Part shown: in pieces, positions 1,421-18,350 of the stretch
How positions within the stretch are numbered: position 1 is the first letter of the stretch
Layout: each line of letters begins with the position of its first letter
Source: Cryobacterium melibiosiphilum
GTDB lineage: Bacteria; Actinomycetota; Actinomycetes; Actinomycetales; Microbacteriaceae
Length of the DNA: 64,000 nt
Assembly (NCBI RefSeq): GCF_003602235.1
Contig: NZ_QZVS01000095.1
Coordinates: forward strand, 356-64,355
Direction of reading: 5' to 3'
Program-made: the position numbers and the translations under genes
The notes under the pieces: model-generated
Database searches by the model: none
Seen by the model: only the letters and a program-made list of their open reading frames with translations
Told to the model about the DNA's origin: nothing

Positions 1421-1421
1421 G

Positions 1422-1568
1422 ATGACCGAGGTTGGGCGTCACGCGGCGGAGAACGACTCGAACCAAGTCAAACCTCCGAAAGAAACAGGGTCCGGCTCGG
1501 CGTCTTCAAGTAGTCAGATGAACTTCCGCAACAACTCAGGTTCAGCACGAAGCGACTCTGCCGAGTAG
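1422..1568 (+). CDS. Possible small hydrophilic protein, 48 aa
   Basis: A short frame opens two bases after the TGA of the 433-aa gene (ATG at 1422; another in-frame ATG at 1410 lies inside that gene) and runs to 1568. The product would be Ser/Asn/Glu-rich and low in complexity, with no motif. The tight junction suggests translational coupling, but the composition gives no further support. It may be a chance frame. Confidence 0.25.
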   Translation: MTEVGRHAAENDSNQVKPPKETGSGSASSSSQMNFRNNSGSARSDSAE

Positions 1569-2208
1569 CTAACTGGCATCGATGCCGACCGGTCCTCCGG
1601 AAACGCGCTGCCCCAGCGGAAAGGGGAGAGTGCTAACTACGGCTGGAGTAGCCACGAGAATCGATGGGATCTCCTCGACGGAAGCGCACGCGCGGCACCG
1701 GTGCTCTCCGATCCGAGCCTTGGGACCTTGCGAGTGAACCGCGAGTTGGACTCCCGCCCCAGCACCCGCGGCGCTCTGGCTTGCCGGAATGGCGACAGAG
1801 AGTAGCGAGTCTCCGATTGCGGCCTGGGGCGATTCGAGAAAATGGAGGAAAATCCAGAAACTTTGGAGGAAAAGGGTTTCTGGGATCTGGCTTGATCGCT
1901 GCCCTGCTGCCTTTCGTAAACAGCCCACCAAATGTCCCGGAAACTCACGAGTCTCCGGGACATTTTCGGATCTACGGGGATATCCCCATCGAAAACCCAT
2001 CATTGACTCCCTTCGGGGCTCTAGGGGCTGGGCTGTGCGAAAGGCCGGAGTTCCGGTCTTCACTCAGGTGCGCCCGGGGTGCCTAGTCGTGATGACGAAC
2101 AACACCGAGATTCCGTCCCAGTCTGCACCCCGATGTCCCGAAGTCTGGGGGCTGGAGGTGCTCATCGATATCGGCGAGCTCCCTCGCTATCCGGGTATCC
2201 CGCGCAGG
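1569..2208. other. 640-bp stretch without a supported gene
   Basis: Frames are open on both strands, but none gives a recognisable protein, a ribosome binding site or gene-like codon use. The AT-richer part around 1840-1990 contains a strong inverted repeat (1930-1965). Together with the odd composition of the upstream 433-aa gene, this looks like a degraded accessory segment. I see no transposase fragment. Confidence 0.5.
1930..1965. repeat. 36-nt near-perfect inverted repeat
   Basis: Arms AAATGTCCCGGA (1930-1941) and TCCGGGACATTT (1954-1965) are perfect complements. After one mismatch the stem continues as ACTC/GAGT around a two-base centre. The TGTCCCGG...CCGGGACA outline resembles an insertion-sequence end or a solo terminal repeat. 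It sits in the gene-poor spacer, so it could equally be a terminator for the upstream gene, although no T-run follows. Confidence 0.6.
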
Positions 2209-3036
2209 TCAGTGCCCGAACGACAGCGGGTCGAGATCGAGAGGCGTGCCGACGTCGAGCGCGGAGAGCGCGTCGAGTTCGGCCGCCGACAGCTCGAAGT
2301 CGAAGATGCTGATGTTCTCGGCCTGCCGCACGGCATTGGCGGACTTTGGCGTGGGAATGATGCCGTTCTGGGTGTGCCAGCGCAGCACCACCTGGCCCGG
2401 CGTGCGCCCGTGGGCAGCCGCGATGGCGACGATCTCCGGGGCGTCGATCATCCCGTTTCCCTGGCCGAGCGGGCTCCACGCCTCGGTGATGATTCCGTGC
2501 TCGGCGTGCTTGGCGCGCAGATCTGAGCGATTCTGCGTGGGGTCGAGCTTGATCTGGTTGACCTGCGGAACGAGGCCTTCGTCGAACAACTGCTGCAGAT
2601 GCTCCGGCAGAAAGTTCGATACACCGATCGCGCGCACCCGCCCCGAGTCCTGCAACGCCCGCAGCCCGCGAAATGCGTCGACATAGGTGTTCTGGTCGGG
2701 GTTCGGCCAGTGAATCAGGTACAGGTCGATCACGTCGAGGCCGAGCCGCTTCGAGCTCGCCTCGAACGCCCGCTGCACGCCGTCGTAACTGTGCCATTTC
2801 TTGTTCAGCTTGCTCGTGACGAAGACCTCGTCGCGGGGCAGCCCGCTGCGACGGATGCCTTCGCCCACGCCGGCCTCATTCTCGTAGTTTTCGGCGGTGT
2901 CGAACAACCGGTAGCCGGCGATGGCGGCGGTGGCCACGGCATCCGCTGTTTCTAAATTGTTCATCGGCCAGGTTCCGAGCCCGAGGGCGGGAATCGTCAC
3001 GCCGTTGTTGAGGGTGAGGGTGGGAGCCAGGGGCAT
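2209..3036 (-). CDS. Aldo/keto reductase, AKR5 / 2,5-diketo-D-gluconate reductase-like
   Basis: A 275-aa cytoplasmic NADPH-dependent carbonyl reductase of the single-domain TIM-barrel aldo/keto reductase superfamily. The catalytic tetrad is visible: Asp46 and Tyr51 in FDTAENY, Lys76 in VTSK and His109 in LIHWPNP. The C-terminal PTPKSANAVR segment is the usual NADPH 2'-phosphate binding region. Length fits the AKR5 group. I chose the ATG at 3036; an in-frame TTG four codons upstream is possible but has no ribosome binding site. Physiological substrate cannot be read from the sequence; small aldehydes or keto-sugars are usual for the family. It stands alone, divergent from the RibD-like pseudogene. 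Confidence 0.93.
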   Translation of the reverse strand: MPLAPTLTLNNGVTIPALGLGTWPMNNLETADAVATAAIAGYRLFDTAENYENEAGVGEGIRRSGLPRDEVFVTSKLNKKWHSYDGVQRAFEASSKRLGLDVIDLYLIHWPNPDQNTYVDAFRGLRALQDSGRVRAIGVSNFLPEHLQQLFDEGLVPQVNQIKLDPTQNRSDLRAKHAEHGIITEAWSPLGQGNGMIDAPEIVAIAAAHGRTPGQVVLRWHTQNGIIPTPKSANAVRQAENISIFDFELSAAELDALSALDVGTPLDLDPLSFGH

Positions 3037-3200
3037 GGTCGATTCCAATCTGCGAGGCCGCGGCGACCCCGACAGTTAAGCGTATTCCCGCCGCGGCGGG
3101 TGCGCCGGGATTGTGCCAGCGGCGCAATGTGGCCGAATGCGTGCCAAGGCGACAACTCACCACTGGCCACTATGGGGGCACCCGGACGAAGGAGGCGCCC

Positions 3201-3781
3201 GTGGGCACGATGGTTGTGTACGGCTCGGTGTCCGTGGACGGCTTCATCGCGGACGAGAACGACCAGCCCGGACCGCTGTTCGACTGGTTATCCAGCGGTG
3301 ACGTGCCGCTGGACGAGAGCGGCGAGCTGACGGTGTCACAGACGTCCTGTGACTACATTCGGCCGCACTGGCACCAGATCGGGGTGACCATCGTCGGACG
3401 CCACGTCTTCGACCTGACGGATGGCTGGGACGGCAAGGCTCCGAGCGGGATCGACCACGTGATCGTCGTGACCCATCGGCCGAGCCCTGACGGTTGGGAC
3501 CCCGAGTCGCCGTTTCACTTCGTCGACGGCATCGAGTCCGCTGTCGCGATGGCGCAGGAGCTTGCGGGCCACCGGACCGTCGAGGTTGCGCGGGCGGTGT
3601 CGGCGGCCAGGTGTTTGCCGCCGGTCTGGTCGACGAGGTGCGGATGGATGTCGTCCCCATCGTGTTCGGGTGCGGCAAGCGCTACTTCGGGTCGGTGCAC
3701 GAACAACACCTACTGGAGAAAGCCGACGTCGTGATTCAGGGCATCCGTGTGCTTCACCTGCGCTATCGGGTGCGCCGCTGA
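3201..3781 (+). pseudogene. Dihydrofolate reductase / RibD C-terminal-like protein, frameshifted
   Basis: The RibD C-terminal (DHFR-like) fold begins with MVVYGSVSVDGFIAD and includes VTIVGRHVFDLTDGW. Near 3590 the frame breaks: the first frame ends in nonsense (VARAVSAARC), while the next frame supplies the expected ending GGVGGQVFAAGLVDEVRMD then VPIVFGCGKRYFG. One missing G in the run around 3590 (GTTGCG-CGGGCGG) explains it exactly. The start is GTG at 3201, five bases after GGAGG at 3191-3195; ATG 3210 is the alternative. Intact relatives are about 190-aa NADPH-dependent reductases of uncertain substrate. Either a recent pseudogene or a one-base assembly error. Confidence 0.88.
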
Positions 3782-3820
3782 CCGCCCCGACCAACGCGCC
3801 CTGTTCAAAGCCAGACTCGG

Positions 3821-3896
3821 TGTCGATTTATGACAGCTGTGAGCGCGCCACCGCGTTATACGGGGGTGGCGCGCTGACAGCTGTCACTTATCGACA
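3821..3896. repeat. Long palindrome between convergent genes, 32-nt arms, 12-nt loop
   Basis: The left arm (3821-3852) and right arm (3865-3896) pair at 28 of 32 positions, with the inner 22 (TGACAGCTGT then GAGCGCGCCACC against its complement) broken by one mismatch. The loop is 3853-3864. It lies between the RibD-like gene (+) and terC (-), so a bidirectional terminator is plausible, but no T-tract follows and it is far longer than a terminator needs. No other gene is seen in 3782-4033. Confidence 0.85.
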
Positions 3897-4033
3897 AGCG
3901 GATGTCCCCTGACCGGCGCCCGTCGGGGAGCGACGCAGACGGCACCCGTTCAGGCCGGTGCCTTCCCACGTCGCCCTAGCCACGACAATCTGAAGGAGAA
4001 ATCCGCACGACCACGGCGCATGGTGCTTTCTGC

Positions 4034-5230
4034 TTAGCGGCGCTCCCGGGCCAGGTAATCTGCGTGCTGACGATGCGCTTCGGCCACCTGCTCGCGAATC
4101 TTGTCGACGTCCTTTGCCTTGTTGCGATACTTCAGATCCATGGCCAGAACCTGGGCCTCCTCGTCGGCCAGCATCTGGTAAATCCGCTCCCGCTCGGAGA
4201 TGTCAGCGGTGTAGTCCAGGTCGAGGTAGCTCACGGCGTGGCGGCGTGCGTTGTTGATGGCGGTCTGGGCCTTGCCGGCCTTGCTCAGCAGTGAGGCCAC
4301 CACGGTCACGATGAGCGTTCCGATGATCACGCTCAGGGACAGGCCGGTGCTGATTTCCACGACCGGCACCGGTTCGCCGTCGTTGATGAAGGGCAGGTTG
4401 TTCTCGTGCAGGGCGTGGAGCACGAGTTTGACGCCGATGAAGGCCAGAATCACCGCCAGCCCGTACGACAGGTAAATCAGGCGGTCGAGCAGTCCGTCGA
4501 TCAGGAAGTACAACTGCCGCAGTCCCATCAGCGAAAACGCGGTCGCGGTGAAGACGATGTAGACGTTCTGGGTCAGCCCGAAAATGGCGGGAATGGAGTC
4601 GAGCGCGAAGAGGATGTCGGTGCCGCCGATGGCGACCATGACCAGCAGCATGGGGGTCAGTGCCCGCTTGCCCTCGTGCATGGTGAACAGCTTGTCGCCG
4701 TCGTAGTGCTCGGTGGTGTGGAAGAGGCGCCGGGCGAGGCGGATCATCACGTTATCGGCCTGGTTGTCGCCGTGGGCCTCGGGCTTCAGCAGATTGCCGG
4801 CCGTGATCAGCAGGATTAGGCCAAAGATGTAGAAGACCCAGGCAAAGGAATTGATCAGTGCTGCGCCCAGAAAGATGAACCCGGTGCGGGCTATCAAGGA
4901 GAAGACGATGCCGAACAGCAGGACTTTTTGTTGGTCTTCGCGGGGAACCCGGAAACTCGCCATGATGATCAGGAACACGAACAGGTTATCGACGGAGAGC
5001 GCCTTCTCCGTGATGTAGCCGGCGAAGTATTCCGAGCCCATCGTGGCACCGCCGAAGATCAGCACCAGGATGCCGAAGAGGATGGCGATTCCCACGTAGA
5101 TGGACGACCAGAAGGCCGCCTCCTTCAGCGTGGGAACGTGGGCTTTGCGAATGTGAAAGAAATAGTCGAAGGCGAGCAGTGCCAGGATGACGATGATCGT
5201 GATGCCCCAGATGAGGGGGGAGACAGTCAT
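4034..5230 (-). CDS. TerC family integral membrane protein
   Basis: A 398-aa polytopic membrane protein of the TerC/Alx family, linked to tellurite resistance and, for Alx-type members, manganese export. It has about nine hydrophobic segments, the conserved EYFAGYITEKALSVDNLFVF region with its acidic intramembrane residues, and FALDSIPAIFGLT further on. The C-terminal about 90 residues are hydrophilic and charged (YLDLDYTADISERERIYQ onward). Start ATG at 5230 follows AAGG at a five-base distance. It is the downstream gene of a likely pair with the DUF808 gene (106-nt gap, same strand). Metal specificity is not visible. Confidence 0.93.
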   Translation of the reverse strand: MTVSPLIWGITIIVILALLAFDYFFHIRKAHVPTLKEAAFWSSIYVGIAILFGILVLIFGGATMGSEYFAGYITEKALSVDNLFVFLIIMASFRVPREDQQKVLLFGIVFSLIARTGFIFLGAALINSFAWVFYIFGLILLITAGNLLKPEAHGDNQADNVMIRLARRLFHTTEHYDGDKLFTMHEGKRALTPMLLVMVAIGGTDILFALDSIPAIFGLTQNVYIVFTATAFSLMGLRQLYFLIDGLLDRLIYLSYGLAVILAFIGVKLVLHALHENNLPFINDGEPVPVVEISTGLSLSVIIGTLIVTVVASLLSKAGKAQTAINNARRHAVSYLDLDYTADISERERIYQMLADEEAQVLAMDLKYRNKAKDVDKIREQVAEAHRQHADYLARERR

Positions 5231-5336
5231 GAGACCTTGCTTTCCGAGTGAGGTGATCGTGGCGTTGGGGCTACGATAACGCTTTCACCTGCATGCGGGT
5301 AGCCAGAAGGACGGGCTCCCGCTGCGGCGCATCCGC

Positions 5337-6227
5337 TCAGTGAGCGTCGGCGGGCTGCGTGCGCTTCAGCACTCGGGAGGCGCCGAGAACGATGCCGACG
5401 ACGATCATGCCCAGCACAAGACCGAAGACGGCGGATATCGCGGTGTCGGTGACCCAGACGAGGACCGGTCCGGCAGATTCGACCAGGGCCGTCACGGCGT
5501 GCAGCACGTCGGCGGGACCGTGCCAGAAGGTCTCGGCCAGGTTGGTGATCACCAGGTGGCCACCCACCCACAGCATGGCGACCGTGCCGATGACGCCGAT
5601 GATCGTGAATACCGCGGGCATGGATGCCACGATGCGGGCGCCGAGACGCCGCACCCCTCTGGCGGGGCTTTCCATCAGGGCCAGACCGACATCGTCGATC
5701 TTGACCAGGATGGCGACGGCGCCGTAGACGACCACGGTCATCACGAGTCCGATCACCAGCAGGGCCCCGAGCGTCAGCCAGATGCCGAAATCCGGGTCGA
5801 GGCTCGCCAGGGCGATGAGCATGATCTCAGTGCTCAGGATGAGGTCGGTGCGGATGGCGCCGAAGATGAGCTTGCCCTCGTCACGCGATTCGGTCTCGTC
5901 GGCGGCGTGGTGCACGCCGAACCATTCGGTGACCTTCTCGGCGCCCTCGAAGCAGAGATAGGCGCCGCCGAAAATCAGCAGGAACGGCAGCACGAAGGGC
6001 GCGAAGGCCGAGAGCAGCAGGGCCAGCGGGATGATGATGACGAACTTGTTGAAGATGCTGCCGAGTGCGATGCGCCACACCACGTGCAACTCGCGCGCGG
6101 GCGACAGCCCCTGCACGTACTGCGGGGTGACGGCCGCGTCGTCGATCACGACGCCGGCGGTCTTCGCGCTCGCCTTGAGCGCGGCGGTCAGGATGTCATC
6201 GACAACGGCTAGCAGGCCGACCGACAT
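5337..6227 (-). CDS. DUF808 family membrane protein (YedI-like)
   Basis: A 296-aa protein beginning MSVGLLAVVDDILTAALKAS, the typical DUF808 opening, with several long hydrophobic segments (for example around FVIIIPLALLLSAFAPFVLP) and a short hydrophilic tail. The start at 6227 is preceded by GAGGAGA at a good distance; an upstream in-frame ATG at 6263 lacks this. Function of the family is unknown; members are inner-membrane proteins. It sits directly upstream of terC on the same strand, which suggests a shared role in membrane or metal homeostasis, but this is inference. Confidence 0.9.
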   Translation of the reverse strand: MSVGLLAVVDDILTAALKASAKTAGVVIDDAAVTPQYVQGLSPARELHVVWRIALGSIFNKFVIIIPLALLLSAFAPFVLPFLLIFGGAYLCFEGAEKVTEWFGVHHAADETESRDEGKLIFGAIRTDLILSTEIMLIALASLDPDFGIWLTLGALLVIGLVMTVVVYGAVAILVKIDDVGLALMESPARGVRRLGARIVASMPAVFTIIGVIGTVAMLWVGGHLVITNLAETFWHGPADVLHAVTALVESAGPVLVWVTDTAISAVFGLVLGMIVVGIVLGASRVLKRTQPADAH

Positions 6228-6346
6228 GGAGTTCTCCTCGGATGGGGCGTCGTGCGTGTGCACCTGACGACAATGTGTTCAGAATACAGCGCGGCCGGAC
6301 AGCGACGGTATCAGCAGGCAGCGGGGACCTGCCCCCGCAGGACGGA

Positions 6347-6970
6347 TCAGTGGATGAGGGCCAGCAGGGCCGCGACGGCGATGAACAGCGATCCGAAGAC
6401 GCGGTTGAGAATCGTCTGGCCTCTCACGGTGTTCGTGAAGCGCTGAAAGGACTTCGCCGCTGCCGCGAAGAGCAGCCACATCACCACGATGTCGATGGCC
6501 ACGACGGTGACCGTGAGCACCAGGTACTGGGGCAGTAGCGGCTGTTCGGGCCGGATGAACTGCGGCATGAACGCGAGAAAGAACACCAGCGCTTTGGGGT
6601 TGAGCAGGTTGACCCAGAGTCCCCGGCGAAACATCGACCAGGCCGACTCCCGCACCGTCACGCTGGTCGCGCTCCGCGCGGCGGTGGGCTGCTGCAGCAG
6701 CAGGCGGATGCCGAGAAACACCAGGTACGCGGCCCCGGCATAGCGAATCACGTTGAACAGCACGGGAGACCCGGCCACAAGCACTCCGACACCGAGCGCC
6801 ACGACGATCACGTGTGCGATGAGCGCGACCTGCTGGCCCAGGATTCCCCAGATGGAGCGGCGAAACCCCGAGGTGAGGGAGTTGTTCATGGTGTTGATGG
6901 CGCCCGCGCCCGGAGTGAGGCTGATCAGCACGCCGGCACCCGCGAGGGCCAGCCAGAGGGAAAGTTGCAC
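6347..6970 (-). CDS. LysE/RhtB family amino-acid exporter
   Basis: A 207-aa protein with about six membrane segments. The N-terminal LISLTPGAGAINTMNNSL is the LysE/RhtB signature region, and the length is normal. It is predicted to export amino acids or derivatives with the proton gradient; the substrate cannot be assigned. The start is GTG at 6970 (VQLSLWLALAG). It lies 119 bp upstream of the DUF808 gene and 99 bp downstream of the alcohol dehydrogenase, all on the minus strand, but gaps of this size argue for separate units. Confidence 0.92.
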   Translation of the reverse strand: MQLSLWLALAGAGVLISLTPGAGAINTMNNSLTSGFRRSIWGILGQQVALIAHVIVVALGVGVLVAGSPVLFNVIRYAGAAYLVFLGIRLLLQQPTAARSATSVTVRESAWSMFRRGLWVNLLNPKALVFFLAFMPQFIRPEQPLLPQYLVLTVTVVAIDIVVMWLLFAAAAKSFQRFTNTVRGQTILNRVFGSLFIAVAALLALIH

Positions 6971-7069
6971 ACGCCAGCGTAACGCGCGGCCGCTCTGGCC
7001 CTGGCCAGCGGATGCCGTGGGCGCCGCGCTCGGGCGACCCGCGGCATCCGCTGAACGAAAACGTGCCTG

Positions 7070-8134
7070 TTAGGACGCGCGGGTCTCGTTCGCGAAGCTC
7101 GCCGTGTCGATGACGAAGCGGTAGCGCACATCGCTCGTGATGACGCGCTCGTAGGCCTCGTTGACCTGGTCGACGCTGATGACCTCCACGTCGGCGCCGA
7201 TGCCGTGGGCGGCGCAGAAATCGAGCATCTCCTGCGTCTGGCGGATGCCGCCGATCTTCGATCCGGCGATCGACCGGCGCTGCGAGGCGAGCCAGAACAT
7301 CTTCACCTGGTCGGGCTCGGTCGGGATGCCGACGTGCACGAGGGTGCCGTCGAGGGCGAGCAGGCCGAGGTAGCGCTCCATGTCGAGGTTGGCGGCGACC
7401 GTGTTCACGATGAGGTCAAAGTGGTTCTCAAGCTCGGTGAAGGTGGCCGGGTCGCTTGTCGCGAAGTAATGGTCGGCTCCGAAGCGCTTTCCGTCTTCCT
7501 GCTTGCTGAGCGTCTGGCTGAGCACGGTGACCTCGGCGCCGAGCGCGTGGGCGATCTTCACGCCCATGTGCCCGAGGCCGCCCATGCCGAGGATGGCGAC
7601 CTTCTTTCCGGGGCCGGCCTTCCAATTGGTCAGCGGGGAGTAGAGGGTGATGCCGGCGCAGAGCAAGGGTGCGGCTTCGGAGAGTTCGATGCCCTCGGGG
7701 ATGCCGAGCACGAAGTTCTCGTCGACGACGACTCCGGTGCTGTAGCCGCCGTTGGTGGCGGTGCCGTCGTAGTAGCGCGAGTTGTAGGTGCCGACCTCGC
7801 CCTTCAGGCAGTACTGCTCTTCGCCGGCGAGGCAGTTGGCGCACTCGCGGCAGCTGTCGACGAAGCAGCCCACGCCGACGCGGTCGCCCACGCGGTACTT
7901 GGTGACGTCGCTGCCGACGGCGGAGACGAAGCCGGCGATTTCGTGGCCGGGGACCATCGGGAACAGTCCCACGCCCCACTCGTCGCGGGCCTGGTGGATG
8001 TCGGAGTGGCAGATGCCGGCGAACTTGATGTCGATGGCCACATCGTGGGCGCCGGGGGTGCGCAGCTCGATCGTGGTGCGCACGAGGGGCTGGTTGGCCG
8101 CGGGGGCGGCGAGGGCGGGAACGGTGAGAGTCAA
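7070..8134 (-). CDS. Zinc-dependent NAD(P) alcohol dehydrogenase, cinnamyl-ADH/YahK type
   Basis: A 354-aa medium-chain dehydrogenase/reductase that interconverts alcohols and aldehydes in the cytoplasm. The catalytic zinc ligands are seen as Cys42 in AGICHSD and the His/Glu of GHE at 64-65. The structural zinc cysteines lie in the [16 protein letters not shown] loop. The Rossmann motif is [12 protein letters not shown] prefer the TTG at 8134 ([10 protein letters not shown]), preceded by GGATTGGA; a longer frame to 8197 has a basic, unrelated N-terminus without a binding site. Overall layout matches YahK/AdhC-type broad aldehyde reductases. Confidence 0.92.
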
Positions 8135-8368
8135 GAGAACGTCCAATCCGGGTTGAGGAAGCGGGCTTCGTCGTGCCACCCCACGACACCCGCACATCGA
8201 CGCTACGTGGTGCGTCCGACAAAATGCTGATCGAAGGGGGCCCTGACAGGGCCACCCACGGCGCCACGTGCATCAGTGGCCGTGCGGCTCCTCCGGGTCC
8301 GAGCGATGACCCCGCCTGTAGGCTCGACAATCATCGGTCGGCATGAAGCGCAGGGGAGAGACAGCACC

Positions 8369-10285
8369 ATGGCAGGTTCTACCTTCAAGACAAATCCGGT
8401 TTCACTCCAGAAACTTCTTGAAGAAGCCGAGTCGGGCAAGTTGCAACTCCCCGACTTTCAACGCAGCTGGGTTTGGGACGAAGAGCGAATTCGCAGCCTG
8501 ATCGCGTCGGTCTCTCGCGGTTTCCCAGTCGGAGCGATCATGACGTTGAGCGCCGGAAGCGACGTGGCATTCAAGCCTCGTCCGGTGGAGGGGGCCCCGG
8601 CCGCGGCGCTGGCCGTCATTCCCGACGCCTTGCTGTTGGACGGTCAGCAACGACTGACTTCGCTCTATCAGGTCACTTTGCGCAATGCTGTGGTCAGTAC
8701 GATCACGGCAAAGAAGAAGAGGGTGAAGCGCTGGTTTTACATTGACATGCGCAAGGCCTTGGACGCTTCTGAGGAGCGCGAGGCCGCGATCGTCTCCGTG
8801 CCGGAAGACAAGGTCATTCGCTCAGATTTCGGCCGCACCGTCGAACTCGATCTGTCGACTCGAGACGCTGAAATCGAGAATCTGATGTACCCCGTGTCCA
8901 TGCTCTTTGCCTGGGCGAAGTGGCAAGGCTCCTACATCTCGAAGTATGCCGGTGCTGATGATTTTGCCGAGCGATACAGCTTCATCAGTCGCTTTGACGA
9001 TGAGGTCGTGGGCGAGTTCACTGGGTACCAGATCCCGGTCATTGAACTGGACAAATCCACGAGCAAGGAGGCTGTCTGCGTCGTCTTCGAAAAAGTCAAC
9101 ACGGGTGGAAAACCTTTGGACGCGTTCGAGCTCATTACCGCGATGTATGCGGCCGATGGATATGAGCTTCGACGGGATTGGTACGGGGGCGCTGGCGCTA
9201 TCGGCCTGCACAAACAATTCACCGAGTATCTTCGGCTTCCCAATGCGCCGGAAGGTATCCTGGCGAACGTCGACAGCACTGACGTTCTGCACGTCATCTC
9301 GCTTTTCCACACACGAGACCGACGGGTTGCTGCGGAAGCGGCGGGAAAGGTCGGGAGGGACCTGCCGCAAATCATCGGGAATCGAGCCGCACTCCTGAAC
9401 CTGCCGCTTGCGGCATATGTCGAGCATCTGCCGCACGCGATTCGCGGATTTGAACTCGCCGCCAAGTTCCTGATGACATTGAGGATCTACCGTCCGTACG
9501 ATTTGCCCTATCAGACCCAAATTATTCCGCTCGCGGCGATCCTCGGTGAACACCCGGACATCATGGATCACATGGCGGACCGGGAGCGGCTGACCCGTTG
9601 GTATTGGAACGGCGTATTCGGCGAGTTGTACGGATCGACGACTGAATCTCGTATCGCGCGAGACTTCATCGATGTGCCTCTGTGGATGCGAGGCGGCGCA
9701 GCGCCCAGCACATTGGACGACGCGACGTTCCGGGCCGATCGTCTGTGGACCATGCGCATGCGGCTTTCCGCCGCTTACAAGGGTGTCAACGCCCTGCTGA
9801 TGGGAGAGGGGACGCGGGACTTCCGATCCGGTCAGGAGTACGCCAACGCGGTCTTTTTTGATGAGGGAGTGGACATTCACCATATTTTTCCGCAGAAATG
9901 GTGCCAGACCGCTGGAATTGACCGGGCCGTCTACGACTCGATCGTGAACAAGACTCCCTTGTCCGCCCGAACCAACCGGATCATCGGAGGAGTCGCGCCA
10001 AGCGACTATCTGGCGAAACTCGAGAGAGGGAGCAACGATTCACCGCCCGTTCCCGTCTCCGACCTCGATGCGTCCCTCAACTCGCACCTGATCGATGTCG
10101 ACAGAATTCGATGCGACGATTTCGACGGATTCATGTCGGCTCGCCACGAACGACTCATCTCGCTGATCGAGGGTGCCACCGGTCAGCGTGTCTATCGCGA
10201 ACACGTCGACGCAGACGAGCTCCTAGAGGAAGAGTTTGATGAGGCCGGCGACGAAGCCGAACACACTTTGTCCCCGGTGAGCTAG
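8369..10285 (+). CDS. DUF262 / HNH nuclease, GmrSD-like
   Basis: A 638-aa protein. The N-terminal DUF262 (ParB/sulfiredoxin-like nucleotidase) domain carries LQLPDFQRSWVWDEERIRSL and the hallmark DGQQRLT at 91-97. The C-terminal part has an HNH-like nuclease core: DIHHIFPQ at 502-509, then NKTPLSARTNRIIGG and PSDYL. This order is that of GmrSD-type (type IV, modification-dependent) restriction enzymes and of single-gene phage-defence proteins. ATG 8369 follows AGGGGAGAG with an eight-base spacer. No methylase or second subunit lies beside it, so it appears self-contained. It sits between a metabolic gene and an acetyltransferase, as single-gene defence cargo often does. Confidence 0.88.
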   Translation: MAGSTFKTNPVSLQKLLEEAESGKLQLPDFQRSWVWDEERIRSLIASVSRGFPVGAIMTLSAGSDVAFKPRPVEGAPAAALAVIPDALLLDGQQRLTSLYQVTLRNAVVSTITAKKKRVKRWFYIDMRKALDASEEREAAIVSVPEDKVIRSDFGRTVELDLSTRDAEIENLMYPVSMLFAWAKWQGSYISKYAGADDFAERYSFISRFDDEVVGEFTGYQIPVIELDKSTSKEAVCVVFEKVNTGGKPLDAFELITAMYAADGYELRRDWYGGAGAIGLHKQFTEYLRLPNAPEGILANVDSTDVLHVISLFHTRDRRVAAEAAGKVGRDLPQIIGNRAALLNLPLAAYVEHLPHAIRGFELAAKFLMTLRIYRPYDLPYQTQIIPLAAILGEHPDIMDHMADRERLTRWYWNGVFGELYGSTTESRIARDFIDVPLWMRGGAAPSTLDDATFRADRLWTMRMRLSAAYKGVNALLMGEGTRDFRSGQEYANAVFFDEGVDIHHIFPQKWCQTAGIDRAVYDSIVNKTPLSARTNRIIGGVAPSDYLAKLERGSNDSPPVPVSDLDASLNSHLIDVDRIRCDDFDGFMSARHERLISLIEGATGQRVYREHVDADELLEEEFDEAGDEAEHTLSPVS

Positions 10286-10385
10286 CCGCGACATCCTGAC
10301 CTGCAAGAAGCGCATCGCCGACGACGGCGAGGGTTCGCACGGGCACCGGCGCCGGCGCCGTGGTCTCTTAGGGCTGACAGGCCGC

Positions 10386-10410
10386 GGAGAGAGAGAGGGA
10401 GAGAGAGCAG
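10386..10410. repeat. GA-rich simple repeat
   Basis: A run of GAGAGA units with one GGG interruption in the 239-bp spacer between the DUF262 gene and the acetyltransferase. Such dinucleotide runs are rare in GC-rich actinobacteria and may slip in replication. The rest of 10286-10524 holds nothing I can identify. Confidence 0.7.
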
Positions 10411-10524
10411 GCGCCGATGGACTTCGTCACATCCGATGAATGCTGCAGCTTCGAGATTGTCCCGGGCGGGGGCACAATGGGGTGATTCCCTGCCTCAGCG
10501 AACACCCCAGACGTCGGAGATCCC

Positions 10525-10992
10525 ATGTTGCCGCCGAGCCCGTTGCCCCCGTGCCACACCCGGCGTCTCGGCGCCGGCGATCTCAGTCTCGCTCGTGTCA
10601 CTCTCAACGTGATGGCAAAGGTCTTCGAAACGGATGCCGTCGACGACCGCGACGCGCACCTGGTCGACCTGCTGCGCTCGCCGTATTTCTGGGCCTTCAC
10701 AGCGACGATCGAGGGCCGGGTGGTCGGCGGACTCACGGCCTATCTGCTGCCCATGGCCCGCACGGCTGCCCGTGAGCTGTTCATTTACGACCTCGCGGTG
10801 GATGCCGCCTTCCAGCGTCGCGGGGTCGCGACCGGCCTCATGGGCGCCATCCGTCAGGCGGCCGAGGTGGAGGGCATCCACGACATCTTCCTCGTGGCGG
10901 AGAACGAAGACGCGCACGCCCTCGCGTTCTACCGGGCGATCGGCATGACCGAGACCGCCACTACGACCTTCGCGTACGGCTCGACGGCGTGA
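10525..10992 (+). CDS. GNAT acetyltransferase, AAC(3)-I-like
   Basis: A 155-aa single-domain GNAT acetyltransferase that would transfer acetyl from acetyl-CoA to an amine. Motif A is ELFIYDLAVDAAFQRRGVATGLM, with the acetyl-CoA loop RRGVATG. The later VAENEDAHALAFYRAIGMTE matches the aminoglycoside 3-N-acetyltransferase AAC(3)-I group more closely than generic GNATs. ATG 10525 has GGAG six bases upstream. An antibiotic substrate is possible but unproven; many chromosomal relatives have other targets. Confidence 0.85.
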   Translation: MLPPSPLPPCHTRRLGAGDLSLARVTLNVMAKVFETDAVDDRDAHLVDLLRSPYFWAFTATIEGRVVGGLTAYLLPMARTAARELFIYDLAVDAAFQRRGVATGLMGAIRQAAEVEGIHDIFLVAENEDAHALAFYRAIGMTETATTTFAYGSTA

Positions 10993-11312
10993 CTCGCGTC
11001 GGGCGCGGGCGCGGCGAGGCTTCGGGGCAGCGGATGTCGCGGCATGGACAAGCGCACGTGCACGTTTTGGGCGCACGTGCAGGTTTGTGTCGCACGACGC
11101 CGCGCCCGTTTCTGACGCCGCAGCAGCTTTCAGGCGCACAACACCAAGCCACGTTCCAACGCAGTGGTCGGTCGCAGCACAATCACGTGCTTGGCAGCCG
11201 CGTCGCCGCGCCGGCGGGATTCGCCGTCGACAGTCGCGGTGTCCCGAACGAAAAGATGTCGCACCGGGAGTGATCAACGTCTGTGCTGACCCGATGTCGG
11301 TGCCCGCTCAGG
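10993..11312. other. 320-bp intergenic region with GCGCACGTGC repeats
   Basis: This space separates the convergent acetyltransferase (+) and MFS (-) genes. It holds two adjacent 19-nt copies of a GCGCACGTGCA-type unit (11052-11089) plus partial relatives after them (CGCACGACG at 11091). I see no coding frame with gene-like features and no T-tailed hairpin. Confidence 0.6.
11052..11089. repeat. Two tandem 19-nt GCGCACGTGC units
   Basis: Copies 11052-11070 and 11071-11089 share GCGCACGTGCA and GTTT with three differences. The core GCGCACGTGC plus GTTTTGGGCGCAC recalls the palindromic family at 28383-28442 and 40790-40854 and is probably a degenerate member. Confidence 0.65.
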
Positions 11313-12731
11313 TCAGCGCCGCAGCTGCGCCTCCGTCGTCGCATCCGGCGCGCCCTCGACCGGCACCGATTCGGTCTGGTCGAGGTACCGCGCCGAAATG
11401 CGGCGGTACGACCGGGTGAAGAATGCGGCGGTGGCCGCGAGCACCATCACGATGCCCGCGATCAGGAACACGAGTGCGATTCCCCGCGCCTGGCCGTCGC
11501 CCAGGAGCCAACCGAAATCGGCACGGCCGGAATCCGAGTCCATGAACGGAATGATGATGAACTCGGCGATCGGTGCGATCAGGAATGCGGTAACCGGGGC
11601 CGCCGCGGATTCGAATGCGGCCGCGAAACCGAACACGCGGCCCTGCTCGCCAAACGGCACCACCTTCTGGATGACGGTCTGCTCCGACGCTTCGACGGCG
11701 GGGATGAGGATCATGTAGAGCCAGATGCCCGCGGCATACAGCCACCACCAGTCGCGGATCGTGAACAGCGCCCCGAGCACGCCCATGAGAATGACCAGCA
11801 GCAGCATCGTGCGAATCGGGTTGCGGCCGAGGCCGAACTTCGCGATGAGCAGACCGCCGATGATGAACCCGGTCGAGCTGACGCCGAGCACGATGCCCCA
11901 CATTTCCACCGGAAAGAGTTCGAGTCCGTATGGGTCCATCAGCGCCATGTAGACGCCGCCGATGAAGTTGTTGAAGGTGGAGAAGATGATCAGCGCGAAC
12001 AGCCCGGTGGCCGCGCGTACGGCCGTGATGCTGCCGCGCAGGTCGATCAGCGGGCGCCGCTGGCCGTCCTGCTGCGGTTGGTCCTCGGGGATGCGCAGGA
12101 ACAGCAGGTGCAGCAGTGCAGCGGCCGACAGCGAGATGGCGATGACCAGCGTCCAGCCCATGCCGAGCAGGCCGATCGCGAGCCCGCTGAAGACGCTCGT
12201 GACCATGAACGCGAGCCCCTGTACCGTGCCGACCATCCCGTTCGCGTTCGCGTGCCGCTCCGTGGGGATCAGCAGCGTCACGACCGTGGAGAGCGCGATG
12301 TTGCGCATGTTCTCGATCACCGCTCCGAAGAGGATGATGCCGCTGAACAGCCAGAACCACGGCCCGCCCAGGTCGAGCAGGGCGGACTCCGGAAACACGA
12401 GATACAGCCCGCCGCCGATGCTGAACGCGATCAGGGTGGCCGCTCCGGCGAACACCATCACGAGATGCTTACGATGGCGGTCCACGAAGGTGCCGAACGC
12501 CATCGAGAATACGGCGACGAGCAGCATGTACGCGCCGCCGATGATGCCGGTGGCAAGCACCGAACGGGTCTCCAGATAGACCCAGAAAGTGAGGGCGAAC
12601 CAGAGAAAGCTCGTGGTGATGTTAGCGACCGCCGTGTTCACGAGCACCTGCGCGAACGTGCGGGCACCGCTGCCGGATCTTGGCTCGGTGCTCTTCTGGG
12701 ATGTCGCCGATGCGTCGTTCGTGGACGCCAT
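11313..12731 (-). CDS. MFS transporter
   Basis: A 472-aa major facilitator with about 12 membrane segments. The loop GTFVDRHRKHLVM between the second and third segments is the MFS motif A region, and a basic central loop is present (after LRIPEDQPQQDGQRR). The N-terminal about 30 residues are polar. The family (MFS_1/MFS_3 type, as in macrolide or siderophore exporters) mostly pumps drugs or secondary metabolites outward; the substrate is unknown. Start at 12731 has GGAGGCG eight bases upstream; the frame upstream of it is unsupported. Convergent with the acetyltransferase. Confidence 0.9.
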   Translation of the reverse strand: MASTNDASATSQKSTEPRSGSGARTFAQVLVNTAVANITTSFLWFALTFWVYLETRSVLATGIIGGAYMLLVAVFSMAFGTFVDRHRKHLVMVFAGAATLIAFSIGGGLYLVFPESALLDLGGPWFWLFSGIILFGAVIENMRNIALSTVVTLLIPTERHANANGMVGTVQGLAFMVTSVFSGLAIGLLGMGWTLVIAISLSAAALLHLLFLRIPEDQPQQDGQRRPLIDLRGSITAVRAATGLFALIIFSTFNNFIGGVYMALMDPYGLELFPVEMWGIVLGVSSTGFIIGGLLIAKFGLGRNPIRTMLLLVILMGVLGALFTIRDWWWLYAAGIWLYMILIPAVEASEQTVIQKVVPFGEQGRVFGFAAAFESAAAPVTAFLIAPIAEFIIIPFMDSDSGRADFGWLLGDGQARGIALVFLIAGIVMVLAATAAFFTRSYRRISARYLDQTESVPVEGAPDATTEAQLRR

Positions 12732-12981
12732 GTCATTCGCCTCCCGGGTGAACGCAGATAGAGGGATCGATGACAACATCGTAGACAGCGTGAACAGGTC
12801 CCGGGTAGTCTCGCCGAGCAATCCTCGGCTCGTGCGGCGGGTCCGGCTACAGGCCGTTGGATCTGCCGATCGCTGGGGCTGGGTGCTCGTACGCCGTCCG
12901 CGGCTAGCGGTGGGTGCTCAATCAGGGGCGCCGCGCGCTCAGGAGTGATGTCCAACAGGGATTTACTCAGGGCTCTAGGCT

Positions 12982-13803
12982 GTGGCTATGAGGGGGCAAC
13001 GCGCATCACGGGCCGTCTGCGTACTCACGCTGACGGGGTTGCTCGCGGGGTGCGCTCCCGTGGTCGTGAGCGCTCAGGATTCGCAGGCGCGCGCGATCGT
13101 CGCGGAGGTCGCGAAGTCGGTGTCCGGCAACCGGCCCGCTGACATCAACGGATTTGCGCGGTCCGCTGCCGTATCCATTGAGGGTGACGGGTCGAAGCGC
13201 GGTCGGGTGGACCTGGTCGGAATTGAAGAGCGGGTGCCCGCTTCGTTGGGCGATCCCTTCGGCACGCTGACATTTCGGGTGCAGTTGCCAGCAGGTGAGA
13301 CCGGATTCGATCCTGCGGACGCTTTCGACGCCTGCTTTACCGTGGAGTTCGACTAATACGGGGTGAGCGACGATCGCATCTGGGAGAATTCCCGCTATCT
13401 GCGTGAGCAGTCGTGCCCTGAAGGCGTGGCACCGGTCGTGCCGCCGATTGACACCAGCATCCAGTCTGTCGTGGCCACCAACGCGGAGGCCGCAGCGATG
13501 GAGGTGCTCGGCGACGAGACCTCAGTCGGCCAGGACGCCGCCGAGATCACGGCCCGGATCATGGCCCTGCTCGAGGTGCCCTCGGGGGAATATGAGGAGC
13601 TGGCCCGGCCAACCGTCCTCGTCGTCGACGGAAACGTGGGGGTGGCGATGGGACGATCCTCAGAAGACTGCGTTCTCGTGGCCCGCGTCGACGGCATGGT
13701 GTCACGCGTGATGCCGGCACCCATTTTGCTCGAGCCCGGAGAGCTGGGTTGCCAGCCGGGCACAGCGCTCGCAGACCCCGCGCAGCTCCGATCGCCGCAC
13801 TGA
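12982..13803 (+). pseudogene. Secreted lipoprotein gene interrupted by an in-frame TAA
   Basis: The frame opens at GTG 12982 (or ATG 12988) with a lipoprotein signal, LTGLLAGC then APVVVSA. It meets TAA at 13354-13356 and continues in the same frame without other stops to 13803. Across the stop the reading CFTVEFD-stop-YGVSDDRIWEN joins smoothly, and the downstream half ends naturally. A single TAC-to-TAA change would account for it. The 273-residue product would be an exported lipoprotein of a type common beside ECF loci in this family; function unknown. Pseudogene, assembly error or stop readthrough are the options; the first two are likelier. Confidence 0.8.
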
Positions 13804-13865
13804 CCGGTGCCGCTGGGTCGTTCAGCTCTTTGTCACGTTTGGCCGGCATCTCGACATGGGTAGGT

Positions 13866-14612
13866 ATGGACGATTTAGAGCGCGACGTAGAAGACCGGAT
13901 GCGGGAGCTCGGCCGGGTGCCGGTCTCCGCCGGAGCCCGCGGCGCAACGCAGGCGCTGACCAGGGCGCTCGAAGACCCCGCCGTGCGTGACGGGAGTGCG
14001 CCGGAACGGCGGCGGTGGTTCGCGGGGTTCTCCCGCCGACACCGCCTGGTCGTCGGCAGCCTCGTCGCGCTGGTTGGCATTGGTGTCGGGGTGCCGGCGG
14101 TTGCGACCTCGATGCTGGCCCGAACGGGGGAGTTCGGCGACCCGGCGACGAGCACCGAGGTGGACGACACCGAATGGCTCGACCCCGGAGCGGATGATCT
14201 GCCGCAGGTCATCATCGACGCCTACCCGGATTACCTCACGCTGCCGCCGGGCATGCCCGAGAATCTGGCGATCGCCGACACCTCCCGCCTGATGGGGGCG
14301 ATGGGCGCCGAACACGCCGTCGGCCAGGCCGTGGTGCAGGAGAGTTACGTGACGCAGGTCTACGAGACCTTCGCGATCTGCGCCTGGACCGATGCTTGGC
14401 TCGGCGCGCACGCATCGGCTGACTCGGACGCCGAGGCGCTCGCCACCGCGTGGATCGGCGACTTCGACAACTACCGGGCATTCTCACGCTCCGAAAGCGT
14501 GCGGGACAGAATGGCCGTCATCGCCACAGCAGCAGGCAACGGCAATCCGGGCATCGTCACGGGGGCGTACACCGAAAACGACTGCGCTGTGCGGCTCGGG
14601 GACAACCAGTGA
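13866..14612 (+). CDS. Single-pass membrane protein coupled to an ECF sigma factor
   Basis: A 248-aa protein. The N-terminal about 65 residues are charged and cytoplasmic (MDDLERDVEDRMRELGRVP), followed by one membrane segment (LVVGSLVALVGIGVGVPAVA) and an extracytoplasmic domain of about 155 residues. The TGA overlaps the ATG of the ECF sigma gene by one base. Topology and coupling suggest an anti-sigma or signal-sensing partner, although I see no zinc-binding HxxxCxxC motif. ATG 13866 begins the charged domain; longer readings start inside the preceding gene. Confidence 0.75.
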   Translation: MDDLERDVEDRMRELGRVPVSAGARGATQALTRALEDPAVRDGSAPERRRWFAGFSRRHRLVVGSLVALVGIGVGVPAVATSMLARTGEFGDPATSTEVDDTEWLDPGADDLPQVIIDAYPDYLTLPPGMPENLAIADTSRLMGAMGAEHAVGQAVVQESYVTQVYETFAICAWTDAWLGAHASADSDAEALATAWIGDFDNYRAFSRSESVRDRMAVIATAAGNGNPGIVTGAYTENDCAVRLGDNQ

Positions 14613-15121
14613 TGGGCGCAGAATCCGCCACGGATGCGCCCGTGCAGGCGGCGGCATCCGTCGCGGAGTTCATCCGGTCCGTCGCCGACGAACTGCTCGC
14701 CTACTTCGCCCGCCGGGTGACACCGCACGAGGATGCCGCGGACTGCCTCTCCGAGACGCTGCTGGTTCTCTGGCGCCGACGTGAGAGCCTGCCGACGGCC
14801 GCAGACGAGCGACGCGCCTGGACCTACGGTGTCGCCCACAACGTGCTCGCCGCCCACCGTCGTGGCGGCATGCGGCGCCTGGCGCTCAGCTCGCGGTTGC
14901 GCGACGAACTGCGCGTCGCGCCGATCGCGCCGTCGTCCGACGACGACCGCGCTATCACCGCGCTCGCGTCGCTCGGCGCGCGGGACCGGGAGCTGGTCTC
15001 CCTCGTCGTGTGGGAGGGGCTGAGCATCGCCGAGGCCGGCGCGGTCATCGGCGTGCGACCCGACGCCGCGCGGGCCCGGTACTCCCGGGCGCGGCGCACG
15101 CTGCGCGCGCGTCTGAAGTGA
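14612..15121 (+). CDS. ECF RNA polymerase sigma factor
   Basis: A 169-aa extracytoplasmic-function sigma factor. Region 2 is LLAYFARRVTPHEDAADCLSETLLVLWRR and region 4 ends with GLSIAEAGAVIGVRPDAARARYSRARRTLRARL, the helix-turn-helix that reads the -35 element. It would direct RNA polymerase to stress promoters. The ATG overlaps the stop of the membrane protein gene (TGATG), so both are made together. Order is reversed from the usual sigma/anti-sigma order. Target promoters are unknown. Confidence 0.9.
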   Translation: MGAESATDAPVQAAASVAEFIRSVADELLAYFARRVTPHEDAADCLSETLLVLWRRRESLPTAADERRAWTYGVAHNVLAAHRRGGMRRLALSSRLRDELRVAPIAPSSDDDRAITALASLGARDRELVSLVVWEGLSIAEAGAVIGVRPDAARARYSRARRTLRARLK

Positions 15122-15150
15122 GCGAGTTCGGGCCGCGCCCGGTCGCTTCG

Positions 15151-15873
15151 CTACGTGGTTTCGGGCAACTCGGCCGTCGCGACCACCGTGCCGGAGGCAT
15201 CCTGAATTTCGACGCTCGTGACGGCATCACGCATGACGGCAGCGTTCATCTCGCAGTCGATGGTGACCGTGCTGCCGAGGAATGAGCCGGAGGCGATCGT
15301 GTCACCGGCTTCGGTCACCAGCACCACGTTGTAGGGATCGTTCGCGGTCAAACCGATGACGCGAAGGATCGTCTCCGTGCCCCAGGTGTGGGCGATGAGA
15401 GACCCATCGATGTCCACGCCGTGCGCTTCACCATTGAAAGAGATCTGCTCGAGGGCGCCGAGGGTACCGGGAGGTCCGGTGGGTGAGGTGGGTGTTCCGG
15501 GTTGGCTGAGCAGCACCCCGCCGGCACCGATTCCCACGCACGCCGCCGCTGCGAGCCCCATCAGCCAGCGCCGTCGGCGTACGGGTGTGGTCGAGGCGTC
15601 GGCACCCGGCGCCGGGAAACGCGACACCGCGGCGACGGTGTCGTGCACCGCCAGGCTGCGCTCTCGCAGGCTCGGTGACGGTGCGGACGAGTCCCAGCCC
15701 GAGAGGGACGCCGCGGTCAGGGAGGAAACCGCCGACAGCTCGCGAATCTCGTCGTCGATGGTGGCATCGCCGGCACGAAGGGCCTGCAGCTCGGTCTGCT
15801 CGGCCGGTGACAGGTCGCCGCTGATGGCTCCGGCGATGAGCGTGGCTCGGCGTTCGCCGGGGGTGTCAGGCAT
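15151..15873 (-). CDS. rskA: RskA-like anti-sigma factor
   Basis: A 240-aa regulated anti-sigma factor. The N-terminal domain (residues 1-100) faces the cytoplasm and should bind the sigma factor encoded just upstream; a membrane segment is seen at WLMGLAAAACVGIGAGGVLL; the extracytoplasmic RskA domain follows, with its NGEAHGVDIDGSLIAHTWGT and GDTIASGSFLG strands. The gene overlaps the sigma gene by eight bases, as expected for stoichiometric production. Release of the sigma factor probably needs regulated proteolysis, by analogy with mycobacterial SigK/RskA. The symbol is by family resemblance. Confidence 0.87.
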   Translation of the reverse strand: MPDTPGERRATLIAGAISGDLSPAEQTELQALRAGDATIDDEIRELSAVSSLTAASLSGWDSSAPSPSLRERSLAVHDTVAAVSRFPAPGADASTTPVRRRRWLMGLAAAACVGIGAGGVLLSQPGTPTSPTGPPGTLGALEQISFNGEAHGVDIDGSLIAHTWGTETILRVIGLTANDPYNVVLVTEAGDTIASGSFLGSTVTIDCEMNAAVMRDAVTSVEIQDASGTVVATAELPETT

Positions 15874-16510
15874 GGGGGTTCTTTCGAATCGTGAGGTGAT
15901 CGCGCATGGCGCGCAGAGCATAAAAAGAACGGGAGCGCAGCGTCGCAGCCGACACTCCGGACTCGGCGGATACTTCCGCATAGCTGCGACCCTCAAGGTG
16001 AATTTCAATGAGCACGGATCGGTGTTCCGGGCTCAGCTTGGCGAGCCCCTCGATGACGCTCAGTCGGTCGAGGGGGTCGCCGTCGTCGGTGACGGCGTCG
16101 TCGAGCAGGTCCGGGGGCAGCACCCGCGGCATCCGCTGGATCGAGCGTTGCACATCGATGATGACGTGACGTTCAATGGCGAAGAGCCATGTTTTCAGGC
16201 TGGCCCGGTGCGGGGAAAACTGGTCGCGAGCGCGCCAGGCCCGCAAGAAAGTCTCTTGCACGCAGTCTTCAGCGAGGGTTCGATCGCGCAGCGCGTTCAC
16301 GGCGAAACCGAACAGGGAATGGCCGTGCTCGTCGTAGGCGGCGGCCAAATCGAAGGGCTGGGGCACCGACTCGGCGGCCGGGCTTGGGCCTGAAGGGCTG
16401 GGGGCGGCCGGGCTGGGGGCTGACGGGTCGGGTGTCATGTCTGCCATGCCTCGCCCTTCGTCGCGCAACTGCCCTCGCGCGGTGACCGGGCTTTTCAGTT
16501 GCGCAGCCAT
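15866..16510 (-). CDS. sigK: ECF sigma factor, SigK-like
   Basis: A 214-aa ECF sigma factor with a Pro/Ala/Ser-rich N-terminal tail, region 2 (AYDEHGHSLFGFAVNALRD then RTLAEDCVQETFLRAW) and region 4 (LSPEHRSVLIEIHLEG then RSYAEVSAESGVSAATLRSR). It is followed by rskA with overlap and is divergent from the CHRD/sortase pair. In mycobacteria SigK/RskA controls secreted surface antigens, and the layout here is alike. I chose ATG 16510 with AAAGGGG upstream; ATG 16447 would remove the tail. Symbol by context and resemblance. Confidence 0.85.
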   Translation of the reverse strand: MAAQLKSPVTARGQLRDEGRGMADMTPDPSAPSPAAPSPSGPSPAAESVPQPFDLAAAYDEHGHSLFGFAVNALRDRTLAEDCVQETFLRAWRARDQFSPHRASLKTWLFAIERHVIIDVQRSIQRMPRVLPPDLLDDAVTDDGDPLDRLSVIEGLAKLSPEHRSVLIEIHLEGRSYAEVSAESGVSAATLRSRSFYALRAMRDHLTIRKNPHA

Positions 16511-16758
16511 CACCGACCCCTTTCACTCTACTTGCCGGTTCTCGTCGGCGACCAGGGCCTACCTTCGCGCCCAATTCACCGGGAGTCACACGACGCCCAC
16601 AGAGGGGTATACGACCGAGGAGCCCGATTCGTTCAGTCGCGATCCGAACATGTGAAACAGCTGACAGTGTGATTATCGCCCTGAACGCGGATGCCGCCCC
16701 GATCGTATATCCCTGCATCGGGCTCACTCTGGTGCTCGCCAACTCGAAAGGCACTGCG

Positions 16759-17505
16759 ATGTCAACTATCCCCTTCCTTCGCCCCCTCACCTGTGGCGCC
16801 GCGGCTGCCGTCGCGGCCGTCGCCGTGTTCGGGCTCGCCGCACCGGCCAGTGCCGAAACCACCGTCGCTGAGCCCAGCACCTTCACCAGCGCATTCACGG
16901 TGATGGCCACCCCCGATCAGGTCGTCAATCCCGACGGGGTCTTCACCCCGGGGGAAGCCGGCGCCACCGGGGAATTCAACTTCCGGGTCAACTCCGATCT
17001 CGACATCATCTGTTACGACATCACCCTCACGAACGTCACCGGCGACTATCAGAGCCCAGCCAAGACAGCCACTCACGTGCATGAGGCCGAGCTGGGCAAG
17101 CCCGGCCCGCCGCGCATCGCGTTTCCGAACCCTGCTCCGGTCGGTGATGGCCCTCGCACGAGTTCCGGCTGCCTGCAGGGACCGTTCACCACCGGGGTCG
17201 TCGTGAACGGTGCGGACACCGGCGCCGGGTTCACCCTCAAAGCCCTCGAAGCGAACGCCGCTGGGTTCGCGGGAGATTCGCACACCGTGAATTCCCCTGC
17301 GGGAGTCGTGCGGGGACAGTTAAGCCAGATGCCCGTGGGCGGCTTGCAGACCGGCGGCGGTGCGACGGCGGCGGCCGCTGACGGCGGGAGCCAGACCTCC
17401 GCGGTGCTGACCGTTGGCGCGGGGGCCGCGGTCGTTCTCGGCCTCGGCGGATTCGCGCTCTATCGTCGCCGGTCCGTTCAGCCTGAGCCGACACCCTCGC
17501 GATGA
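16759..17505 (+). CDS. CHRD-domain surface protein with C-terminal anchor
   Basis: A 248-aa secreted protein. It has a signal peptide ending ASAE, then a CHRD domain (about residues 40-190) with FNFRVNSDLDIICYDIT, ATHVHEAELGKPGPP and SPAGVVRGQLSQMP. The C-terminus has a small Gly/Ala linker containing LQTGGG, a hydrophobic helix and RRR, which is the layout of a sortase substrate, although LQTG is not a classical LPXTG box. The sortase gene overlaps its stop by four bases. ATG 16759 has AAAGG upstream. It is probably displayed on the cell wall under control of the divergent SigK-like factor. Ligand unknown. Confidence 0.85.
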   Translation: MSTIPFLRPLTCGAAAAVAAVAVFGLAAPASAETTVAEPSTFTSAFTVMATPDQVVNPDGVFTPGEAGATGEFNFRVNSDLDIICYDITLTNVTGDYQSPAKTATHVHEAELGKPGPPRIAFPNPAPVGDGPRTSSGCLQGPFTTGVVVNGADTGAGFTLKALEANAAGFAGDSHTVNSPAGVVRGQLSQMPVGGLQTGGGATAAAADGGSQTSAVLTVGAGAAVVLGLGGFALYRRRSVQPEPTPSR

Positions 17506-18221: not shown

Positions 18222-18258
18222 GCCCGCGGCTCAGCACCCCGGGCAGCGCGCGCCGCGG

Positions 18259-18318
18259 GGCACTCGTTGTGCAAGCCGGCACTTGTCGTATCAGGTGCCG
18301 GCTTGCACAACGAGTGCC
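18259..18318. repeat. Perfect 24-bp palindrome with 12-nt loop
   Basis: Arms 18259-18282 and 18295-18318 are exact complements (core ACTCGTTGTGCAAGCCGGCA); the loop is 18283-18294. It lies between the convergent sortase and NYN genes, 38 bp after one stop and 32 bp after the other. It may terminate both, but a T-run is absent and the length exceeds ordinary terminators. Confidence 0.9.
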
Positions 18319-18350
18319 GCGACGGGGTAGCGGCGCTGGGGTGGCGGCGC

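Follow-up and report, generated by a model that had tools for sequence, protein, structure and literature searches.

A lone DUF262-HNH gene in Cryobacterium melibiosiphilum as a candidate single-gene phage restriction nuclease

Does a DUF262-HNH gene standing alone in a Cryobacterium melibiosiphilum genome encode a defense against viruses, and which of the known enzymes does it resemble? The window analyzed here, a 64,000-nucleotide stretch of contig NZ_QZVS01000095.1, drew attention in a first-pass annotation because one chain appeared to carry both a DGQQRLT and an HHIFP element with no partner, as in single-gene systems of the GmrSD type. The analysis presented below describes a virus-defense candidate that is sound, if fairly ordinary, and that looks newly acquired.

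Gene, active-site residues and predicted fold

Both elements are indeed located in one chain. The open reading frame at 8369-10285 of the forward strand is uninterrupted over 638 codons, with DGQQRLT at residues 91-97 and HHIFP at residues 504-508, and the gene is the sole match in its own genome. A longer frame opening with GTG at 8276 is less likely than the preferred start at 8369, since alignments to relatives start at residue 1-6 in most rows. The features of the gene are the following:

8369-10285, forward strand: DUF262-HNH gene (P0001) with a 638-aa product, from the reading frame list, translation and Pfam
8405-9148, forward strand: GmrSD_N/DUF262 domain, residues 13-260, from Pfam PF03235 and ParB/sulfiredoxin-like matches
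8507-8509, forward strand: S47, at the position of BrxU S42 (dimer switch), from profile alignment and BrxU mutants
8639-8653, forward strand: DGQQR, residues 91-95, predicted NTP binding/hydrolysis, in 84/84 rows
9764-10129, forward strand: HNH fold region, residues 466-587, from alignment to Cas9 HNH domains in VIA-align, with Z about 5-6, where the tool gives a warning about common arrangements
9878-9892, forward strand: HHIFP, residues 504-508, with H504, H505, F507 and P508 in 84/84 rows and I506 in 81
9947-9976, forward strand: N527 to N536, spanning both HNH-core Asn residues, each in 84/84 rows

The N-terminal domain matched PF03235 (GmrSD_N) far beyond chance (4.4e-29; 102.5 bits against a Pfam cut-off of 33.2), and the same family was matched in 60/60 relatives. 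For the C-terminal half Pfam names no family, and an NCBIfam search of the whole protein gave no match. Several DUF262 proteins of PADLOC matched the product, with PDC-M55C at the top (2.5e-23). PDC-M55C, HEC-05 and NsnA also matched 60/60 relatives at 1e-5, and their strongest stretches of similarity to the window protein are N-terminal only.

Conservation was read from 84 alignment and tree rows (87 minus the fragmentary relatives L071, L075 and L080), and a second alignment (A1) held 60 sequences, the window protein and 59 others. The residues D91-G-Q-Q-R95, F240, N244, H504, H505, F507, P508, N527 and N536 are invariant in 84/84 rows, while the QR pair (Q31 and R32) is kept in 83/84. F30 is Phe in 83/84 rows, the other row having a gap or another letter, and the S47 column holds 70 Ser and 13 Thr among the 83 rows bearing a letter. 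H504 and H505 are predicted to act as metal ligand and general base. The name "nucleotidase" first given to the DGQQRLT element needs correction, as the element is present but should be called an NTP-binding/NTPase motif (PMC4619093).

GmrSD enzymes are defined by PF03235 plus PF07510 with an E/D-H-N-N set, and their reported motifs are DGQQR, a QR pair and FxxxN, followed by a C-terminal (I/L/V)(E/D)H(I/L/V)xPQ (PMC4619093). A further trait of the family is that it cleaves DNA with modified cytosine, using NTP and a metal. The DUF262 motifs (DGQQR, QR and FxxxN) are common to GmrSD, Eco94GmrSD and the window protein. The C-terminal motif differs, however, since the window protein reads I-H-H-I-F-P-Q, with the H and two N present. 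Moreover, PF07510 (DUF1524) at E 0.01 had no match in the window protein and matched 5/60 relatives weakly (best 7.4e-4). The missing PF07510 match and the H-H pair in place of E/D-H set the protein outside strict GmrSD, and sequence and model together point to a BrxU-like or GmrSD-like enzyme. The original GmrSD-type label is thus supported as to a single DUF262-HNH chain, for which a BrxU fold is predicted, but the protein is not a strict GmrSD.

An AlphaFold2 model of the protein, built from 60 natural sequences, reached a mean pLDDT of 88.8 and a pTM of 0.79. BrxU, a Type IV enzyme of the GmrSD family with the same two-domain DUF262 plus HNH chain (PDB 7p9k/7p9m), was the top PDB match both by profile (4.9e-11) and by fold (Foldseek 3.1e-14, then SspE at 1.4e-5). 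In VIA-align the likeness to BrxU covered most of the chain (Z 18.8 over 490 residues, rmsd 17.7 Å; Z 18.4 over 506 residues, rmsd 16.5 Å), whereas the next rows only reached Z 9.7 (SspE at 6.5-9.7 and DndI at 9.3, both with the same domain order as the window protein). The model therefore supports a BrxU fold for this single-chain protein, and rmsd values of 16.5-17.7 Å suggest that the arrangement of the two domains may differ from that in BrxU. ParB and sulfiredoxin align to the N-terminal part of the model at Z about 5-6, where the tool again warns of common arrangements.

The identity between BrxU and the window protein is about 15%, and BrxU has DHIYP where the window protein has HHIFP. 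Phage defense was reported as lost in the BrxU mutants S42A, S42D, Q101A, R102A, D474A and H475A, weak in N519A and E528A, and like wild type in Q35A, R38A and N485A (PMC8565348). BrxU S42, Q101, R102, D474 and H475 correspond to S47, Q94, R95, H504 and H505, all conserved in relatives, and BrxU Q35 and R38 correspond to R40 (R in 76/84 rows) and S43 (S in 41/84 rows). S47, R40 and S43 were placed by profile alignment, and D474-H475 onto H504-H505 by motif order. Consequently, the positions essential in BrxU are kept with one change from Asp to His, and the R38 position at least tolerates variation. The presence of H504 in place of an essential Asp counts against the BrxU-like reading; HNH sites, those of colicins among them, can use a His to bind the metal.

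Distribution in the genus and the syntenic slot

Among 57 genomes of the genus, including its own, a match at 1e-50 occurred only in the genome of the window and in one other (83% complete). A full-length homologue was found in 1/56 other congeners, at only 42% identity and hence from a different subfamily, and four further congeners gave short N-terminal matches only, to other DUF262 proteins. The gene is accessory in the genus, and its rarity among congeners rules out a housekeeping gene common to all relatives.

The congener G067, the closest syntenic sister, keeps the TerC, DUF808, LysE, dehydrogenase, GNAT and MFS genes in the same order, on one contig and with 84-90% DNA identity. Similarity to it ends at window position 8263 and restarts at 10552, leaving the following stretch:

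8264-10551, no strand assigned: stretch without DNA similarity to G067, the DUF262-HNH gene being the sole recognized gene within

The slot in G067 measures 1945 bp and holds a 504-aa DUF222 protein (PF02720, 1.2e-20) on the opposite strand (L168:7785-9299, reverse strand), and several other intervals of the same region carry extra DNA. Rearrangement of the right-hand flank was seen in 13 other congeners, and the roughly 3.5 kb upstream of the dehydrogenase contained no homologue either in G067 or in these 13 (n = 14). The gene is therefore not at the same place in all relatives. The comparison supports a slot that was acquired or swapped relative to the syntenic G067, which may be a place where nuclease-like genes are exchanged. 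The insertion for which synteny was to be checked is seen as a difference from G067 but not as a clean empty site, as the G067 slot is filled by the DUF222 gene and the 13 congeners are rearranged on the right.

Base composition was also distinctive. The GC content of the gene is 0.582 versus 0.671 for the window, and one in 311 sliding stretches of the gene's length is as low; its GC3 is 0.696 versus 0.79-0.91 in nine other reading frames, with the frame at 119-1420 lower still. These low values fit a foreign origin. Direct repeats of at least 14 bp were not found around the gene, the two inverted pairs (one within the gene, one a palindrome downstream) do not flank it, and a tRNA search of the window found none. 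Insertion by a recognizable element was rejected on account of the lack of flanking repeats and of tRNA in the window. The accessory gene initially noted 7 kb away is probably the frame at 119-1420 (forward strand; GC 0.575, GC3 0.613), which has no Pfam, PADLOC or NCBIfam family. A further feature of the window is a strong palindrome at 3805-3920 (RNA fold -65.2 kcal/mol, z -6.4). It takes 26/44 matches of window 1-10300 in G067, on both strands and several contigs, and is a dispersed palindromic repeat.

The neighbors named by Pfam are TerC, DUF808, LysE, zinc alcohol dehydrogenase, GNAT, MFS, aldo-keto reductase and CHRD. The immediate flanks are the dehydrogenase and GNAT genes, which are not core housekeeping genes as had been supposed. 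The GNAT acetyltransferase (10525-10992, forward strand) scores 95.6 bits with the AAC(3)-I model NF033083, whose cut-off is 200, and is not callable as a resistance gene. The absence of a partner was upheld within the range searched: none was recognized among the Pfam-named neighbors or by PADLOC on 8 neighbor frames (nine further frames were examined with Pfam only), and 15 defense-type query genes gave no match in window 369-18285, that is, no helicase, methylase or ATPase neighbor. The BREX association of BrxU-type enzymes was likewise not found, no defense gene being recognized beside the gene. Several neighbor frames have no Pfam family (e.g., 119-1420, 3111-3734, 13363-13803, 13749-14612, 15151-16008 and 18267-19445), so a partner of an undescribed kind may lie among them.

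Relatives and their genomic neighborhoods

Of 88 loci from the scan of genome contigs, 80 were retained; these come from many phyla and share 38-63% identity. Plasmid records matched in 43/72,556 cases (21 covering at least 80% of the protein), phage records in 4/50,697 (best 40%), and five viral contigs matched as well. The neighbors on these five contigs are Mod/Res/UvrD in three, Res/UvrD in one and a DruE-like gene in one, so that the copies are probably integrated islands. A phage-borne gene was rejected, given the 4/50,697 phage records and the restriction-type genes beside the viral-contig copies.

The tree of 84 rows was a quick one, made without bootstrap and containing long branches that meet. 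It places the window protein within a clade of seven actinobacterial rows (SH-aLRT 98), nested in 55 rows that span Pseudomonadota, Planctomycetota, Bacillota and others. From this mixture of phyla we infer a pattern that fits repeated horizontal transfer. A genome of the same order (G059) and Pseudarthrobacter sp. C4D7 carry identical homologues.

It is necessary to bear in mind that neighbor frames were called mechanically, some being antisense frames at GC-rich loci where some true genes were missed. A defense-type match within 8 kb was found in 37/58 loci that extend 3 kb or more on each side (47 of all 86) and in 2/16 control stretches, both to HsdR. Since the 15 queries were chosen from the same loci (13/15 checked by Pfam or PADLOC), stricter counts were made: 32/58 loci with the own query omitted, and 16/40 after dereplication at 90%. 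The link to defense is plain at many loci, but over the whole set it is moderate. In the window's clade, 5/6 relatives have a defense-type neighbor, the sixth locus ending 252 bp upstream. Each of these five loci had supplied a query, and with own queries omitted 1/6 remains (L011), so the link in this clade comes from the PADLOC scan and is weak for L003. Among the closest loci, the proportion with a defense-type neighbor is 8/23.

The kinds of neighbor vary widely. A Type I R protein adjoins the relative in Microbacterium flavescens, a PADLOC Type IV enzyme in Williamsia, MzaC in Rhodococcus koreensis and a Type II methylase in Kribbia. On a Nostoc plasmid (L150:2876-10839), the relative follows drmC of an annotated DISARM locus after 7 bp, as if it were the last gene; other relatives adjoin HmaB and HmaC, and Mod/Res, DruE-like helicase and WYL genes abut the homologue in some loci. 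Solo-looking copies also recur, next to elongation-factor/ribosomal-protein genes (L002), his (L015) and adk/leuD-like genes (L019), all named by eye. The neighbor-family tallies are partial (25 of 232 and 25 of 107 families listed), and histidinol dehydrogenase is present among the 25 of 107. Two sphingomonad plasmids (L146:6789-8981 and L147:3078-5258) encode a 726-730-aa protein 19-28 bp upstream of the relative, with an N-terminal helix-turn-helix and a remainder without a Pfam name. Our search found no paper on the H-H DUF262-HNH family, which may be in print elsewhere. The frequent defense neighbors of relatives, together with the acquired or swapped slot, sustain the proposal of a candidate defense gene.

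Proposed function and alternatives

The analysis shows which domains and conserved motifs the protein has, the fold predicted for it, its accessory status in the genus and the frequent defense context of relatives. As an explanation we favor, at somewhat better than an even chance, a restriction nuclease with BrxU/GmrSD architecture that works as one gene and was gained by horizontal transfer, for which NTPase activity, nuclease activity, phage restriction and Type IV behavior would be expected. If the protein works as BrxU does, its N-terminal DUF262 domain would bind and hydrolyze NTP via DGQQR, and this would shift the dimer or domain arrangement. The trigger would be a feature that host DNA lacks, most probably a modified base in the invading DNA, and the C-terminal HNH site (H504, H505, N527 and N536) would then cut DNA with a divalent metal.

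The modifications carried by the host bear on this target. A PF00145 C5-cytosine methylase was not found in the host genome, which fits the cutting of modified DNA. The same family occurs in 11/20 genomes with a close relative versus 10/14 control genomes, no clear depletion (the completeness of the 20 not being given). Thus, 5mC is disfavored as the general target, and blanket 5mC cutting by the subfamily is unlikely.

The protein could instead be an orphaned effector of an Hma-, DISARM- or R-M-like system, whose partners were lost or whose methylase lies elsewhere, and which cuts DNA without the self mark. Relatives abut such operons, DndI is reported to cut DNA without its mark (PMC11662687), and N6/N4-methylase matches exist elsewhere in the host genome (5 PF02384 and 2 PF01555). 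However, none of the operon genes was recognized in window 369-18285, solo relatives recur, and the gene is intact despite standing alone, so we regard this origin as rather unlikely.

An abortive-infection or toxin-type nuclease, damaging host DNA upon infection, seems improbable. The reported toxicity of DndI to unmarked cells (PMC11662687) favors it, and several DUF262-carrying systems are reported to have an undescribed mode of action (PMC10952713). Nevertheless, the closest solved relative, BrxU, is reported to cut modified phage DNA directly (PMC8565348), and no antitoxin-like neighbor was recognized.

We give very little credence to an enzyme of the SspE or DndI kind, which would sense phosphorothioate and be gated by sulfur modification of host DNA. 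SspE and DndI share the DUF262-HNH layout and come next after BrxU in the fold ranking, and F30 is aromatic at the position of the phosphorothioate-sensing Tyr of DndI (Y25, P-x-Y-Q). That residue is nonetheless Phe rather than Tyr, no dnd or ssp genes were recognized in the listed neighbor clusters of relatives, and the host gave no DndC match, weak evidence because the same model passed its cut-off in 0/14 control genomes. Equally remote is a selfish or non-defense HNH gene in a variable slot, for although the G067 slot carries a different HNH-like gene and the extra DNA in other G067 intervals means that the region simply varies, both active sites are strictly conserved across many phyla and relatives have defense neighbors.

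The favored reading, a self-contained restriction nuclease, gives an actinobacterium a small candidate for restricting phages. It also draws attention to a wide subfamily with poor naming, whose members stand alone at some loci and are joined to very different defense operons at others. A more speculative view, which we hold doubtful, is that the widespread subfamily with the invariant catalytic H-H pair is an interchangeable plug-in with the BrxU fold, restricting marked DNA when solo and acting as a nuclease gated by the self mark when next to Hma, DISARM, Type III R-M or Druantia-like operons. If this were true, one enzyme core would serve opposite rules of self and non-self. With both solo and operon-linked copies, this one family can be used to study whether partners are required by a GmrSD-like nuclease and what mark on DNA is recognized.
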